DNA of 39,406 bases from a virus: positions 1-39,406 of the IMG/VR virus record IMGVR_UViG_3300032241_001542; one strand, written 5' to 3'. The translations under genes and the position numbers were made by a program. The first letter of the stretch is position 1, and the number at the start of each line of letters is the position of its first letter. Below are positions 24,670 to 38,107 of this stretch, piece after piece. Under the pieces are notes generated by a model that ran no database searches, was not told the origin of the DNA, and saw only the letters and a program-made list of their open reading frames with translations.

Positions 24670-27609
24670 ATGGCAAGAGATCCAAAATCACTGACGGTAG
24701 ACTACAAGACAATCCTAAAAATGCTACCAAGCGACAGGGCAACTTTGGCTTCAAGTGGTGCTTTAGACAACCTGATGTCCACTTTGACACCATCACAAAT
24801 GGCTGCTTTGTTCCCCAAGTATTATATGTATCGTTATGTAGATACTGGCAAAATCAACCAGTTTGATAATGCTTTGTCCGGTGGAGCCGCGGGCGGTGTT
24901 CAAGGCTCTGGGCAAAATCAACAGTATAGAGTCAAGTCTGGACCTGGTCTGCCTGGGTCTGATACCGCTGCTCCTGTATCTCCTTCTCAGGCTGCTATAA
25001 ATGCTGTTGCTGCAAAGTATGGGGTAACTCTAAAGGATCCCCGAACAGATATGTCCAATTCTCAAGCCACAGGTAGCTACAAAAAAATCTTAGACTATGT
25101 TGCCGATTCGGAAGGTGCAAATTATAATACTCAGTTTGGTTATCAAAAAACTACTGGTGGAAAAGCATTGACAGATATGACGATTGCTGAAGTTATGTCT
25201 ACTCAGACAAAACAGAGTGGATCTTCTGCTATCGGACGTTATCAATTCATGCATAGAACTTTGCAAGATTTAATCAACAAGGGAATAGTGAAGCCTGACG
25301 ATAAATTTAGCCCTGAAACTCAAGATAGAATGGCAACTTATCTGATTGATACAAAGCGCCACGGCGCTGCTTGGAGAGCCGGAAAAATAACAGATGCTCA
25401 ATTTGGAAAGTATCTATCACAAGAATTTGCCAGTATCCCAAATCCTGAAACTGGTAGAGGTTACTATGGCGGGCAAAGAGCAAAGTATGGAACAGACGTT
25501 CTTATGAATACACTTAACTCTGCAAAATCTACCAGCAATACTACTTCACCTGATTCAGGGCAACAAGTTGGTGGACTTGCATCAGCAACAGCTACGGGAG
25601 GTCCAGCAACACCCGGCAGCGCACAAACCAAAAAGACTGTTTTGATTTCCATGGGGTCAAACGACAAGGGCACAAACATAAACACATATGAAAACACACT
25701 CAATGCTATCAATGCAGCGAAGGCTAAAGGATACAATGTAGTCATTATTCCACCAAAAGACAGCGAACATCGCAGAGATGAAGTGTTGAAAGCAGCACAA
25801 GCAGCAGGTGCTGGGGTCACAGTAGAAACTGATTTAGAATACGGTGGATTTGGTGGATATCATCTGACAGATGATCAATATAAGAAACTTGCTGAAAAGT
25901 ATAAGGGAGCTGATGTTTTTGGAGACAGTCTGGGTGTAGGCATAAGGACAGGCGGCAACAATCTTGCTGTTCAAAGCCTGGACACCAATAAAATTTTACC
26001 ACAAACAAACGCTTTGGCAGATGTCTCAAATCAACCAGGTGCACCACCAGTAACAGGAACTCCTATTCCTTCTATTTCTCCTCAAGTTATGGAAGAGATT
26101 AAAAAAAATCCAGAACTTGCTAAGATAGTTTCTGAGCGACCTGAACTGGTAGCACAGTTGATTGGAACTATTGCTAAACAAAACAAGTTGGCACCAGACG
26201 ATCCTAAGGTAGCACAAGCACTTAGCTTTGAACTTGTTGACAAGCAAAAAAAATCCGGCGCTAACGCACCTACAGCAGCACCTGTAGAACAAAAAAAAGC
26301 AACTAAAGGATTTGAACAAAATGTAGCAATCAATGATGATGTTATGAAAGGTAAATCCCCCTTCATATCTGGGCACGACTTCGCCGTCCCTGTTTATACA
26401 AAAGGAACTGAAAAAAACCCATTTGATGAAAGTCTTAGTGGATTAACTCCTCAGGCGATTGAAAGACTAAAACAAGACGCAATCGCAGCAAAAGCTGCTG
26501 GCGTAGATCATTTGGTTATTACAGGCGCACAATCTATGACAGGTCATGCAAGTCATGGCGCAGGAACAGAGTTTGATATCAAAGGAGTGAATGCTGATGG
26601 CAGCACATGGACTAAAGACCAAAGGGCATTAACATCCCTTGGTGCAATAAAAATGGGCGGTCCTTCTGCTGCTGATAGGGCAGGATTTTATCCTGGGATG
26701 ACTTTGCATGAAGGTAAAACAAATGAAGTTCAAATGGGTCCAAGAGCCCCTGGAGCATGGGGTCCTGGTGAGCAAACTCAAGGTGTTCCTCTTGCCTCGT
26801 TCCAAACAGGTATGGAAAAAGACATTGCGGCGTATTTGAAAGGACAGGGACCTATGCCTAACAGCCCTGTTCTTGATGAGCATTTGAAAAGAATGAATGA
26901 GGCGATGAAAGAGTCGGACCAAAATTCATCTGACAAAAAAGCTGATGTCATCGCAGCAGGCGCCGCAGGGCAGCCTGTAGACCAATCAAGTAGTTTGGTT
27001 GCATCTAGTGCAAAGAATCCAAATAGTGCTACACCCGATTCTACCGCAAGTTCAGCATCACCTGTGCCTCCGGCAATACCAGCGGCAGGCGCAGATCAGA
27101 CAAATAATGATGCCAATACGCATATGCTTCATGTTGGTTCCAATGGGGAACGCCTCAGGGGTCTTGTTCCTAATGCAAAAGCTGATGCCGCGGCGGCAGT
27201 TGACGCTACCGTAGGCGATCTGACTGCGAATACTGGTACTACTGGTACTAGTGGAGATGTTCCTCAACTTGCAAAGGGTGGAACTGTCAAGACACGCGAA
27301 GATTTAGCAGCTATCAATATCAAAACAGGGCAGCCAGAGTTCATGTTCAATAGCGGCGAGACTGTCACAGTAACACCCGGCGAAGATCAGCGCAAGAATC
27401 CTCAGCAGGCTCAAGAAGCAAGCAATACTATTGAACTTATGAGAAACAAGAAGCAGATGAACCAGATACAGGCTACTAAAGAGCCCGAACTGTTTGAAAA
27501 GATTGCGATGGGTTATACCCCAACACCAGGCTCATTTGCAAGAGCAACCAACCGTGCAAAGCAATATGAAGAGACTAGCACACACTTTGTAAACGGTCAC
27601 TTTATGTAA
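24670..27609 (+). CDS. multi-domain tail protein with cell-wall hydrolase modules
   Basis: 979 residues, in the tape-measure position after tube and chaperone genes. In order: an N-terminal helical part (1-65); Gly/Ser linkers; residues about 138-285, a lambda-lysozyme-like GH104 domain (SEG with Glu148, then GRYQF, FSPETQD, a KR-HG turn, SIPNP and YYGGQ); residues about 322-435, an SGNH-like part with block order changed (GSND 329-332, His398, GDS 418-420); residues about 565-690, a metallopeptidase-like part with H629xxG..D636 (M15-like pattern). The C-terminal part has LAKGG and FNSGETVTVTP, common at tape-measure ends. It probably cuts peptidoglycan at DNA entry, replacing gp5 lysozyme. 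Domain calls are by motif only. Confidence 0.7.
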   Translation: MARDPKSLTVDYKTILKMLPSDRATLASSGALDNLMSTLTPSQMAALFPKYYMYRYVDTGKINQFDNALSGGAAGGVQGSGQNQQYRVKSGPGLPGSDTAAPVSPSQAAINAVAAKYGVTLKDPRTDMSNSQATGSYKKILDYVADSEGANYNTQFGYQKTTGGKALTDMTIAEVMSTQTKQSGSSAIGRYQFMHRTLQDLINKGIVKPDDKFSPETQDRMATYLIDTKRHGAAWRAGKITDAQFGKYLSQEFASIPNPETGRGYYGGQRAKYGTDVLMNTLNSAKSTSNTTSPDSGQQVGGLASATATGGPATPGSAQTKKTVLISMGSNDKGTNINTYENTLNAINAAKAKGYNVVIIPPKDSEHRRDEVLKAAQAAGAGVTVETDLEYGGFGGYHLTDDQYKKLAEKYKGADVFGDSLGVGIRTGGNNLAVQSLDTNKILPQTNALADVSNQPGAPPVTGTPIPSISPQVMEEIKKNPELAKIVSERPELVAQLIGTIAKQNKLAPDDPKVAQALSFELVDKQKKSGANAPTAAPVEQKKATKGFEQNVAINDDVMKGKSPFISGHDFAVPVYTKGTEKNPFDESLSGLTPQAIERLKQDAIAAKAAGVDHLVITGAQSMTGHASHGAGTEFDIKGVNADGSTWTKDQRALTSLGAIKMGGPSAADRAGFYPGMTLHEGKTNEVQMGPRAPGAWGPGEQTQGVPLASFQTGMEKDIAAYLKGQGPMPNSPVLDEHLKRMNEAMKESDQNSSDKKADVIAAGAAGQPVDQSSSLVASSAKNPNSATPDSTASSASPVPPAIPAAGADQTNNDANTHMLHVGSNGERLRGLVPNAKADAAAAVDATVGDLTANTGTTGTSGDVPQLAKGGTVKTREDLAAINIKTGQPEFMFNSGETVTVTPGEDQRKNPQQAQEASNTIELMRNKKQMNQIQATKEPELFEKIAMGYTPTPGSFARATNRAKQYEETSTHFVNGHFM

Positions 27610-33736: not shown

Positions 33737-34267
33737 TTAGGTTGTAAATCGTGCTGGTGCTTTTTTCTTGGATGGTCTCAATTCTGTCTGAAACGGTAAT
33801 TCTGGATTGTTGAACTTCAACTTGGAGCCAACGGGGTTAGACTTACCCATTCCAGGATTTCCTGTTTCATTTGTGCCTATCAATCGTGCTGTCTTGCCGT
33901 TATGATGCAATACTGAGTCTTGATTGAAATGCTCTCCAGCCTTGCGGCCAAACGCAACCAAATCAGCGCCAGCTTCTCGACCTGGTGCCTTGGCGTGTAT
34001 CACAAATGACTTCTCTTTGTTACCTTCATAGTGCCCTTCAGCTTTACGCACACCGAAGCCAGCATTTCGTGCCATACCAACAAGTTCCTTATCGCGTGAT
34101 GCTATCTCTTTCTTAGACAGGTTAGGTCTTGTTGTAGATAGTCCGATGAAGTGTCTACCTTCCTTTTCATGCTTCTGCATACGAGAAAGGGGATTACCTT
34201 CTTCAAGTTCTTGTCGCTTTTCTTTAAGCTTCTTATAGAACTTCTCTGTTATATTGTTATCTGCCAT
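33737..34267 (-). CDS. DUF3293-like hypothetical protein
   Basis: 176 residues. The N-terminal 50 residues are charged and helical. Residues about 50-130 have HFIGLSTTRPNLSKKE, HYEGNKEKSFVIHA and a FGRKAGEHFNQDSVLHHNGKTARLIGTN stretch; the E-x-S-F ... FxQ-S-V order resembles DUF3293. The C-terminus is basic and Pro/Lys-rich. No catalytic motif recognised. Start with AGAGGAT upstream; PhoH ends two bases before this ATG, so the two genes form an operon. Function unknown. Confidence 0.5.
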   Translation of the reverse strand: MADNNITEKFYKKLKEKRQELEEGNPLSRMQKHEKEGRHFIGLSTTRPNLSKKEIASRDKELVGMARNAGFGVRKAEGHYEGNKEKSFVIHAKAPGREAGADLVAFGRKAGEHFNQDSVLHHNGKTARLIGTNETGNPGMGKSNPVGSKLKFNNPELPFQTELRPSKKKAPARFTT

Positions 34268-35347: not shown

Positions 35348-36358
35348 TTATTGTTTTTCGCCGTTTGGCAGTGGTTGAAAATCATTGGAAGTCTTATATT
35401 TTGGTGTTACTACAATGTTCTTCTTCTGCCCATCCCTTTCAATTTCAAACACAATATTCTGTGTATAATCAGAGTTGGACACATCAATGACAACTTCTGT
35501 TGCTGATCTTGGCGTAAACTGGCCTTCGTTTGTCTTGACAGTAATGATCTTGTCATTTGCCTTCAAGCCAGCCTTTTCAGCGGGGCTATCTGCTGTGATA
35601 CTCTGAATGATCAAGTCTTCATTCAGATTGATACCAACTGAGGCAAAACGCACTTCATTGTATTTCTTGAGGTCGTGAATGACTTTGGTGACCATGCGAA
35701 CAGGAATGGTAAAGCCAAAACTGCCTCCATCTTGTGCTTCCATTCTTGCATTGATTCCCAGGACATCACCTTCTGAGTTGACCAAGGGTCCGCCTGAGTT
35801 GCCATTGAAGATATGAACATCTGATTGAATGAACCAGATAGGCAGGCTTTCAAAGCCGCGCTCTGTATAAGAGATGATGCCCTTGCTGATTGTCCAGTAA
35901 AGCCCCCAAGGATGCCCGATTGAATAGACCTCTTGAGTTTCCTTCAAGTCAAATCCGTCAGCAAAGTTCAAGACCTTATACTTGCGTGTCTTCTTGAACT
36001 TTTCCCAATCATCGATCTTGATGATTGCAATGTCAGTCAGCTTGTCAGCCACAACAACAGTGGCGGTAAAGTTCTCTTCACCAAACTGTGTTGCGACTTC
36101 AATCTTTGTTGACTCTTCAATAACGTGGTTGTTAGTCAGGATTTCATTATCAGCGATAAAGAACCCTGTGCCAAGTGCTTGTTGATGATTTCCCTTGTCA
36201 TCTGTCTTGCTGCTTGTGGACATGATAGCAACCACACCTTTTTCATCATTGATGACAAACTGGTTGTAGTCGCTGTTTGCACAAGCGGTAAGCAGAAACA
36301 GAGGAACCATTGTTACCGCAATGGCAATGTATTTCAGTTGATGATATATTGTATTCAT
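35348..36358 (-). CDS. HtrA/DegP-like serine protease lipoprotein
   Basis: 336 residues. The N-terminus has a hydrophobic signal and the lipobox LTAC (Cys26), followed by Ala-Asn, which favours outer-membrane sorting rather than Asp-dependent retention. The protease domain (about 40-225) has the full triad: His78 (NNHVI), Asp109 (LTDIAII) and Ser188 (GNSGGPL). A PDZ domain follows (about 235-325; DSPAEKAGLKANDKI). The enzyme should face the periplasm and degrade or process envelope proteins. Its start overlaps the stop of the membrane-protein gene (ATGA), so it is coupled to the ExbB/ExbD-like cassette. Lipid-anchored HtrA in a phage is unusual to me. Confidence 0.85.
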   Translation of the reverse strand: MNTIYHQLKYIAIAVTMVPLFLLTACANSDYNQFVINDEKGVVAIMSTSSKTDDKGNHQQALGTGFFIADNEILTNNHVIEESTKIEVATQFGEENFTATVVVADKLTDIAIIKIDDWEKFKKTRKYKVLNFADGFDLKETQEVYSIGHPWGLYWTISKGIISYTERGFESLPIWFIQSDVHIFNGNSGGPLVNSEGDVLGINARMEAQDGGSFGFTIPVRMVTKVIHDLKKYNEVRFASVGINLNEDLIIQSITADSPAEKAGLKANDKIITVKTNEGQFTPRSATEVVIDVSNSDYTQNIVFEIERDGQKKNIVVTPKYKTSNDFQPLPNGEKQ

Positions 36359-36933
36359 TGCTCTAATGACTTTCTTAGTAGTTGTTGGGGTAAAATAATC
36401 TGTAGATGTGGGACTGCATAATTTTCAACGTCACCACCATTGCCGTCTTTGTTTATGGATGAATCGGTGTTTGATTCATCGCCCTGCCCATTACTGGTGG
36501 TTTCTGTTCCATCAATCTGGACAATCATTCCCTGGTCAAGTTGTTTCTTCACTTCACTGAACAGCTTTGCATTCTTGTCAGTGTGAGGAAGATAATACGC
36601 TCTTGGCGCAGGTTGTGGATAGAACTGATAGTGAGTCAGTTTTTGCCATAGTGTTAGTTTGTTTGCCGTGTCATCAACGACCCAGAAGTAGATTCCACCT
36701 TTGCTTTCAGATGTTGGCTCTTCCATATAAACAGATACAATATAGCCAGTCTTAGCTGCTTGTATCGTGGGCCAGCCTTTATATGTCTCAAACGAGAAAT
36801 AGACAAGGCTTGACAAGACAAACATATATGTAATCAGCACCAGCTTGACAAGTATGCTTTTGCTGAAATAGAGTTGCAGCACATACAATAGTGTGAGTAT
36901 CAATAGTGCTATAACAAGGTTCATGCCGATCAT
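36355..36933 (-). CDS. membrane protein of the envelope cassette
   Basis: 192 residues. Two transmembrane segments near the N-terminus: residues about 5-24 (NLVIALLILTLLYVLQLYF) and 29-50 (LVKLVLITYMFVLSSLVYF). The soluble part (about 55-192) has YFWVVDD, YYLPHTDKNAKLFSEV and a Ser/Asp/Asn/Gly-rich low-complexity stretch, then PHLQIILPQQLL. No family recognised. Start and stop overlap the neighbouring genes by four bases on each side (ATGA), so it is made in fixed ratio with ExbD-like and HtrA-like proteins. It may be a complex partner of the energised channel. Confidence 0.7.
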   Translation of the reverse strand: MIGMNLVIALLILTLLYVLQLYFSKSILVKLVLITYMFVLSSLVYFSFETYKGWPTIQAAKTGYIVSVYMEEPTSESKGGIYFWVVDDTANKLTLWQKLTHYQFYPQPAPRAYYLPHTDKNAKLFSEVKKQLDQGMIVQIDGTETTSNGQGDESNTDSSINKDGNGGDVENYAVPHLQIILPQQLLRKSLEQ

Positions 36934-37601
36934 TGTGGCATGCCCCCACGCTTTGTACTGACCATTTGCTTGGGTATGTCTGTAATGCTTTCAACATTAC
37001 CAAACTCATTGATGGTGAAATTGAACACCGTCTGTTCTTCCCATACATGCTGCAATACAACGTCTTTATGTTGAATCAACTCAACATTCGGATTGACCTT
37101 AGTCAAGTCAACACTCACAGGGACTTCAACAGGCGTCTTGAGCAGCATCATCAATGCACCACCAATCGCTGTGTGGCAGCTATAGAGATGCAGATTGACA
37201 GTATACATTCCTGGAACTATTCCTCTCAACACCCAAGTTTCCCCATGATTAGGTACAGTATAGACTTTTCCTGTCAGCTTGTCAAATAGTATTGAGTTTT
37301 TTGAACCCAGGTCGTCACGCTCAAGGTGCATCAAACCAATATCCTTTTGCTGAAACCATGCGATGTTACCCAGAGGATCCTGAACCCATAAGTCAACGTC
37401 ACAGTCAACAGTATTACCCCATGTTGCAGTGACAATAAACTGTGCATCACGCTTGGGTCCTTCCTGATTGTTCTTCTTGACTGGTTGAATCATCAGGGTA
37501 GTCAGAATGAAAAGGAAAATGACGCCAGTTAGGACATTCAAAAGCAGATCAATATAAGCTGTGCGAAAATCAAACTTCTTATGTCTCAACATTGATGCCA
37601 T
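36930..37601 (-). CDS. ExbD/TolR-like anchor with YfaP/DUF2135-like domain
   Basis: 223 residues. One transmembrane segment (about 14-38; AYIDLLLNVLTGVIFLFIL) has Asp18 where ExbD/TolR/MotB carry the proton-binding Asp at the membrane edge. The periplasmic part is not the usual ExbD fold: residues about 50-150 contain VTATWGNTVDCDVDLWVQDPLGN, a run ending ERDDLGS, and GMYTVNLHLYS, like the DUF2135/YfaP beta-sandwich. A further strand-rich C-terminus follows. The gene overlaps the ExbB-like gene by 23 bases and the next by four. It should convert proton flow into motion acting on a periplasmic target. Confidence 0.72.
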   Translation of the reverse strand: MASMLRHKKFDFRTAYIDLLLNVLTGVIFLFILTTLMIQPVKKNNQEGPKRDAQFIVTATWGNTVDCDVDLWVQDPLGNIAWFQQKDIGLMHLERDDLGSKNSILFDKLTGKVYTVPNHGETWVLRGIVPGMYTVNLHLYSCHTAIGGALMMLLKTPVEVPVSVDLTKVNPNVELIQHKDVVLQHVWEEQTVFNFTINEFGNVESITDIPKQMVSTKRGGMPQ

Positions 37602-38076
37602 AACTCAAAATGTAAACTTGAACTTTCAATACAATGCTGGCGATTAGACCAACAGCATTAGTATATAGTGCAAGCCCCATTGAAGCCCACATATTAGACA
37701 GAAGTGTTTGCATAGCAGCATCGCCCGCGGTGCCAACGAAACTGTTAGCCAACATATGAATAAGCCCAATGACAGTTCCCAACATACCAAGAGCCATGAG
37801 TTGCTCTGATATGAACCAGATTGATTCAAACTTGTCAAGGAGAGTTTTGTGGTTGCGCAGAACATAATCATCGTCTGCGACCTGCAATGATAGTCGTGAT
37901 ATGCTGAAAATGTTTACAAAAAGAAAAATGCCTGCGATGATTGAGGTGATCATTGTCACATCGCTTGCCCAGATTTTTGATACCAGACCAAAGTAGTATG
38001 ACCAAAAAACTACGGTGAGCATCAAGAGGACTGATACCCACCAAGAAATAAACTTGAAATACTTTTTTATGTTCAT
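37579..38076 (-). CDS. ExbB/TolQ/MotA-like proton channel protein
   Basis: 165 residues from ATG 38076 with AAAGG six bases upstream; an upstream GTG at 38085 lies within that site. Four hydrophobic segments are at about 8-32, 37-60, 86-113 and 125-157. The last two hold LGMLGTVIGLI (Thr101) and GLALYTNAVGLIAS (Thr139), the paired Thr motifs of ExbB/TolQ. Length is short for ExbB (about 240) and the large cytoplasmic loop is missing. It probably forms a pentameric proton channel with the ExbD-like product of the next gene. Late-type box CATAAATA lies upstream. Confidence 0.75.
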   Translation of the reverse strand: MNIKKYFKFISWWVSVLLMLTVVFWSYYFGLVSKIWASDVTMITSIIAGIFLFVNIFSISRLSLQVADDDYVLRNHKTLLDKFESIWFISEQLMALGMLGTVIGLIHMLANSFVGTAGDAAMQTLLSNMWASMGLALYTNAVGLIASIVLKVQVYILSYGINVET

Positions 38077-38107
38077 CTCAAACACCTTTATGATTATACG
38101 ATAAAGG

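Follow-up and report, generated by a model that had tools for sequence, protein, structure and literature searches.

The stretch analysed here, hereafter the window, comprises 39,406 bases of a single IMG/VR viral record (IMGVR_UViG_3300032241_001542). It represents a fragment of a T4-like myovirus, which encodes a gp32-type single-strand binding protein, a helicase loader, baseplate wedge and hub proteins, a tail tube protein, and PhoH. Beside phoH and a DNA-repair gene lie four consecutive genes, named B, D, M, and H in the following, which an earlier note on this DNA had described as an overlapping cassette. Their overlaps, read from the sequence, measure 23, 4, and 4 bases and all lie on the minus strand, in agreement with that description:

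37579..38076, minus strand: B, predicted channel subunit of the MotA/TolQ/ExbB superfamily, 165 amino acids from ATG
36930..37601, minus strand: D, single-transmembrane (TM) partner, 223 amino acids, with Asp18 in the TM segment and a predicted periplasmic all-beta domain (55-207)
36355..36933, minus strand: M, two-TM protein, 192 amino acids
35348..36358, minus strand: H, lipoprotein HtrA/Deg-type serine protease, 336 amino acids; a phage accessory, not core
37579..37601, minus strand: B/D overlap, 23 bases
36930..36933, minus strand: D/M overlap, 4 bases, ATGA
36355..36358, minus strand: M/H overlap, 4 bases, ATGA

The B reading frame has an alternative start, a GTG at 38085. The protein matches the Pfam family MotA_ExbB above its curated cut-off (E=7e-8; 32.7 bits versus a cut-off of 22.9), and 47 of 51 B proteins match the same family. 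Hydropathy analysis revealed four TM-like segments, and the chain stops just past the last of them. A profile of the 51 B proteins matched ZorA (1.6e-5), MotA (7.7e-5), and TolQ (0.003) in the PDB, and B could be aligned to E. coli ExbB over the pore helices TM2 and TM3 (E=4e-5). Gly100 is conserved in 51/51 proteins, position 101, within a GTV motif, is Thr in 48/51, and position 139 is Thr or Ser in 49/51. The ExbB/MotA threonine motifs attributed to this channel in the earlier note are borne out by the Pfam match and by the presence of Thr101 and Thr139, and the sequence evidence establishes B as a predicted channel of the MotA/TolQ/ExbB superfamily, with its TM2/TM3 glycines and threonines.

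The AlphaFold model of D (mean predicted local distance difference test score, pLDDT, 86.6) consists of a single TM helix (residues 12-38) and an all-beta domain (55-207), which begins about 17 residues past the membrane. Asp18 (codon 37550-37548), Trp61, Asp68, Asp70, and Glu121 are invariant in 52/52 homologues. An RDDxGxxN motif is also invariant, but it was demanded by the search pattern, so the invariance of L93, R95, D96, D97, G99, and N102 was discounted. M was modelled with a pLDDT of 77; its helices 2-23 and 27-51 form a TM hairpin, as expected for the two-TM protein claimed earlier, accompanied by a small mixed domain. Positive residues in the TM loop suggest that this C-terminal domain is periplasmic and that both termini lie outside. 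Neither D nor M has a meaningful match in Pfam, PHROGs, PADLOC, or NCBIfam, and fold searches of both models against the PDB returned no confident match. DUF2135 (PF09906) was matched by 4 of 42 D proteins, with a best E=0.081 that lies below threshold and reflects a motif resemblance only. The periplasmic beta-sandwich of D is unlike the domains of ExbD, TolR, MotB, and ZorB.

Searches with tblastn against annotated phages gave no match for B or for M, and relatives of the triad were therefore linked via D and via profiles. With D, the same kind of search against 50,697 phage records returned 26 matches, all in Rhizobium or Sinorhizobium phages that range from 60-kb temperate phages (e.g. 16-3) to T4-like phages of 150-170 kb; in these neighbourhoods, D is preceded by a homologue of B and followed by one of M. 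Scanning IMG/VR with D added 80 loci. The first eight sequences were used to build hidden Markov models, which detected one and only one B in 90/90 loci and D in 89; after iteration, M was found in 86 of the 90, in the order B, D, M throughout. As 80 of the 90 loci had been fetched with D alone, the linkage of B and M was not imposed by the search, and a chance association of B with D is excluded. Wherever a homologous set was found, in 89 viral and 101 cellular stretches, its genes are arranged in the order B-D-M, and M directly follows D in nearly all loci. B and D overlap or abut, with a gap of at most 30 bases, in 175/190 loci, and D and M in 164/184. When the four-gene order of the window was sought in other phages, its B-D-M part proved conserved, whereas HtrA is adjacent in only some of them and in several arrangements. 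Searches for closely related copies of the D, M, and H of the window itself gave none, and the sole near relative of its B, 52% identical, lies at a contig edge.

The genomic setting of the triad differs between phage groups. In the T4-like Pootjesviridae it lies among replication and recombination genes, and in one myovirus group its neighbours on either side were identified by eye as tail sheath and tail tube genes. It is found just inside the annotated attachment site of TM3_3_14B and beside the immX region of 16-3, and HtrA and cell-wall hydrolase genes occur near some copies. In 16-3, the protease, B, D, and M are encoded by p036, p038, p040, and p042, respectively. In three rhizobial temperate phages, homing-endonuclease genes interrupt the triad, either at the B-D or at the D-M junction, and all three core genes remain:

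L007:5261-5998, L008:5225-5983, and L211:5550-6092: homing-endonuclease genes between triad genes

The triad is not specific to phages but is also carried by alphaproteobacterial chromosomes. A scan of about 85,000 prokaryote species yielded 53 loci, nearly all alphaproteobacterial, which comprise B-D-M, or B-D at contig ends and in one further case (L139). Among 385 sampled alphaproteobacterial genomes, 55 (about 14%) contain strong D matches in a profile search (E <1e-35). The reverse linkage test, with B as the query, was made in these cellular genomes and gave about 60 strong loci, of which about 58, counted by eye, lie beside a D match. None of 625 genomes from two other phyla carries the triad when two seed genomes are set aside (Fisher p near 1e-25). 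Within the Alphaproteobacteria the distribution is uneven: the triad is present in 45/58 genomes of the SAR116 family (78%, incomplete genomes included), in 25/79 of the Skermanella family, often in two copies, and in 3/200 of the Rhizobium family. It is thus near-core in SAR116, where it occupies a conserved chromosomal place between ordinary genes common to two divergent clades.

Two loci come from non-alphaproteobacterial metagenome-assembled genomes (L090 and L091), with no obvious phage genes around them. One is a B-D-M set on a contig binned as Candidatus Harrisonbacteria (L091:8997-10725), a lineage thought to lack an outer membrane; 0/379 other genomes of its phylum carry the triad. 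As no other carrier was found among the sampled genomes of either phylum, we regard each as a rare transfer or a binning error. In SAR116, many contigs from single cells or metagenomes stop about 50-150 bases short of B on its upstream side, and independent assemblies break at the same position:

L106, L108-L110, L114, L119, L122-L124, L127, L129, L131, and L135: contigs broken upstream of B

In most measurable phage pairs, the ratio of nonsynonymous to synonymous substitution rates (dN/dS) is about 0.05-0.4, and B, D, and M correlate in their pairwise distances (r 0.56-0.77). These comparisons establish, as far as sequences can, that B, D, and M are passed on together and are subject to purifying selection. 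A tree of B and D separates two clades, one that unites alphaproteobacterial chromosomes with 16-3-like temperate phages, and one of marine, T4-like, and jumbo phages in which SAR116 and other small alphaproteobacterial genomes are nested. The window belongs to the second clade, on a long branch. Because cells and phages are mixed in both clades, the genes appear to have been exchanged between them, borrowed or donated by phages.

H proved to be the lipid-anchored HtrA protease with a PDZ domain and a full catalytic triad that the earlier note had described, with the catalytic aspartate corrected to Asp109. It contains a lipobox (LTAC26, Cys26), matches Trypsin_2 (E=2e-27) and PDZ_2 (7e-8), and has His78, Asp109 in a TDIAII motif, and Ser188 as catalytic residues. 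Against the Do-family model TIGR02037 it scores 191 bits (E=3e-56), under the 416-bit cut-off. Its place as an integral fourth component of the cassette could not be upheld: the core consists of three genes, and most triad-bearing viral records have no trypsin-like gene nearby. Such genes are present in 17/56 of these records, and 8 of the 18 genes are no more than about 2.5 kb from the triad, where 1.6 would be expected by chance (p ~3e-5), or 4 of 9 when lineages are collapsed (p ~0.004). The protease gene is located upstream of B in 16-3, NV1.1.1, TM3_3_14B, and X2_25, downstream of M in N3_13 and the window, and more than 70 kb away in P10VF and N34. Genome-wide, trypsin-like proteases and the triad co-occur in rhizobial phages: among 19 named phages with the triad, a protease gene was directly seen in 16 and assumed in I3_11 and N3_19 from their likeness to N3_13, and I1_18 is the only one tested in which none was found. 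Conversely, phiM9 and a few other phages carry the protease without the triad, and chromosomal triad copies generally have no trypsin-like gene nearby. Because its placement varies, it is often absent, and chromosomal copies generally lack it, H is a recurrent accessory in several phage lineages rather than a defining part of the triad. One cellular genome contains three consecutive trypsin-like genes upstream of the triad, across a single gene read by eye as aspS (L231:1-2815).

Several other gene families adjoin the triad. A gene for an SbmA/BacA-family peptide transporter lies directly 3' of M in some phage loci (L074:3185-4156, Pfam E=3e-139; further loci with such a transporter are L051, L055, L056, L058, and L059), and an SbmA/BacA-related gene is found at most 7.5 kb away in 17 loci. 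Genes for cytoplasmic protease parts also occur, namely a ClpS adaptor just past M in one phage group (L033:4725-5027; cluster in 9 loci) and a ClpP-type protease near B (L069:2621-3259; cluster in 25 loci). In several alphaproteobacterial genomes, a predicted lipoprotein that weakly resembles DUF3108 adjoins M and is a candidate motor partner:

L217:7358-8068, L221:5084-5785, and L223:4923-5618, also L216 and L222: DUF3108-like lipoprotein beside M

Elsewhere in the window, positions 33737-34267 encode a member of the S-adenosylmethionine lyase family (Pfam E=1e-9), possibly an anti-restriction protein, and positions 24670-27609, among late genes, a 979-amino-acid protein with an internal endolysin-like stretch (phrog_90, E=1.5e-20).

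We give about even odds (probability roughly 0.5) to the reading that B-D-M forms a small ion-driven motor within the MotA/TolQ/ExbB superfamily, that it is native to Alphaproteobacteria, and that these bacteria have exchanged it with their phages. The superfamily channel, the invariant TM aspartate of D, the strict linkage, and the purifying selection all favour the energised envelope system on a phage that the earlier note had proposed. By analogy with the superfamily, a pentamer of B would enclose the TM helices of two D subunits, and protons (or sodium) would pass the B threonines and Asp18 of D, turning or tilting D. Together with M, the periplasmic domain of D could then transmit this motion to a target that lies either within the periplasm or at the outer membrane's inner face. 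The most likely output would be envelope maintenance or remodelling; more tentatively, the motor may handle envelope proteins or lipoproteins, and phages may use it to keep or change the envelope of the cells they infect. A periplasmic trypsin-like protease, co-expressed in the window and in several further phages, may act on substrates or envelope sites exposed by the motor. As the triad is near-core in SAR116, a housekeeping envelope role is favoured over a phage weapon, defence, or lysis.

Several observations weigh against this reading. The chromosomal neighbours vary between genera, and no fourth gene is conserved. The earlier note had described D as an anchor with an ExbD-type aspartate, which fits its gene position, single TM segment, and TM aspartate. 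However, when 52 D proteins were compared as a profile with E. coli ExbD, no similarity was detectable (probability 0.8%), and with TolR no alignment was obtained (0.4%), so that the likeness of D to ExbD is topological only. D also has no peptidoglycan-binding or TonB-like arm and a linker of only about 17 residues, and contact with the outer membrane would therefore need another protein. Finally, most Rhizobiaceae lack a chromosomal copy (3/200 genomes carry one), so the phage copy is no simple reinforcement of the host's.

The main rival, which we consider unlikely, is superinfection exclusion or anti-phage defence, whereby a ZorAB-like motor carried by phages and prophages against competitors would sense the envelope perturbation of an incoming phage and block it. 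By profile, the nearest solved relatives of B are ZorA chains, and PADLOC reports weak ZorA matches. Moreover, the triad of rhizobial temperate phages sits, like lysogenic-conversion genes, beside the immX region (16-3) or inside the attachment site (TM3_3_14B), positions at which such genes are often found. It nevertheless includes no ZorB-like peptidoglycan domain, long ZorA tail, or ZorC/D/E effector, no defence genes were recognised in the neighbourhoods read, and its near-core status at a fixed chromosomal place in SAR116 is unlike that of a patchy defence gene. More improbable, in our view, is a TonB-like energiser of outer-membrane nutrient uptake during infection. No TonB-like protein or receptor gene was recognised in the neighbourhoods read, and D is not ExbD-like outside its TM segment, even though the channel superfamily includes ExbB and, at some phage loci, the gene immediately after M encodes an SbmA/BacA-type peptide transporter.

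A device for lysis or its timing, in which the channel would dissipate the proton-motive force or motor and protease would break the outer membrane at the end of infection, has a slightly smaller chance still. HtrA and cell-wall hydrolase genes lie near some copies, and the myovirus group with the triad between the putative tail sheath and tail tube genes would be expected to express it late. Against this, TM3_3_14B retains genes for a lysozyme and a putative endopeptidase near the triad, the surroundings of the triad are replication and recombination genes in Pootjesviridae and phoH with a DNA-repair gene in the window, and cellular copies have no reason to lyse their host. We give very little credence to the view that phage copies are mere passengers from their hosts with no selected role. 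The B and D tree does place SAR116 inside a group of phage sequences, which reveals exchange between cellular and phage genomes, but passengers should have dN/dS near 1 or frequent pseudogenes, the opposite of the purifying selection seen in phage pairs, and all three genes have been kept in order in many phage lineages, even with homing endonucleases inserted between them.

Returning to the motor reading, we extend it, with a confidence somewhat short of even, to the proposal that B-D-M is an unrecognised alphaproteobacterial envelope machine in addition to Ton, Tol, and flagella, one that has a periplasmic effector domain and a cargo of its own. In phages it would be a mobile module, in some lineages paired with a phage periplasmic protease to reprogram the envelope of the host cell during infection. 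The known families of ion-driven envelope motors are few, and those that have been defined are each at the root of a major process (motility, uptake, division, or defence). A further family that is near-core in the abundant, streamlined marine SAR116 would open a new way to study how alphaproteobacteria energise their envelope and what phages need from it. About 90 viral contigs with the triad span temperate siphoviruses, T4-like phages, and jumbo phages, and tractable hosts exist, such as Sinorhizobium with the temperate phage 16-3, or Skermanella and Azospirillaceae.

No description of the B-D-M module was found in the open-access literature, and the passages reached by term searches of an alphaproteobacterial phage survey, the AP-16-3 genome paper, and two studies of motor evolution contain no mention of it (PMC10783043, PMC10460002, PMC12505986, PMC12204202). 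Among the known systems, ZorAB of Zorya is alike in its superfamily channel, which is the best PDB profile match of B, and in its gene order of channel followed by anchor. A long cytoplasmic tail extends from ZorA, and a domain that binds peptidoglycan is essential in ZorB (PMC11890865). B, in contrast, is only 165 amino acids long and lacks a long tail beyond the final TM-like segment, the all-beta D finds no ZorB match in Pfam, PADLOC, or NCBIfam, and the triad has a third subunit, M. No ZorC/D/E effector genes were recognised beside the window or chromosomal copies, whose neighbours were read by eye and partly with Pfam. Membership in Zorya was rejected on the missing ZorB domain, ZorA tail, and effector genes.

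The Ton (ExbB-ExbD) and Tol (TolQ-TolR) systems share the channel TM2/TM3 motifs, a single-TM partner with a TM aspartate, and a short linker. B differs in its four TM-like segments and small cytoplasmic part, M is new, and D aligns with neither ExbD nor TolR. TonB, TolA, TolB, and Pal were not recognised in the neighbourhoods read of chromosomal copies, and membership in Ton and in Tol-Pal was rejected on these grounds together with the profile probabilities of 0.8% and 0.4%. The MotA-MotB and PomA-PomB stators share a four-TM channel with a threonine ring and an anchor aspartate. B is too short for a flagellar stator, with no torque-generating cytoplasmic domain of MotA size, D has no OmpA-like domain, and there is no flagellar context, so this assignment was also rejected. 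H shares the trypsin fold, full catalytic triad, and PDZ domain of HtrA, DegP, and DegS, but has a lipobox and one PDZ domain, and it scores below the curated cut-offs of the named subfamilies; the 16-3-type phage proteases are shorter than H.

The motor-coupled vWA families (PMC12204202) offer a parallel, as superfamily motors with an unusual periplasmic partner that had earlier gone unrecognised; in B-D-M, the partner is a different beta-sandwich and the third gene, M, is also different. Taken together, B-D-M could not be matched to any named system. Because a superfamily channel is here combined with D and M subunits that match no known family, and with a distinct beta-sandwich in D, it looks like a new family of ion-driven envelope motor, separate from Zorya, Ton, and Tol, that is common to alphaproteobacteria and their phages.

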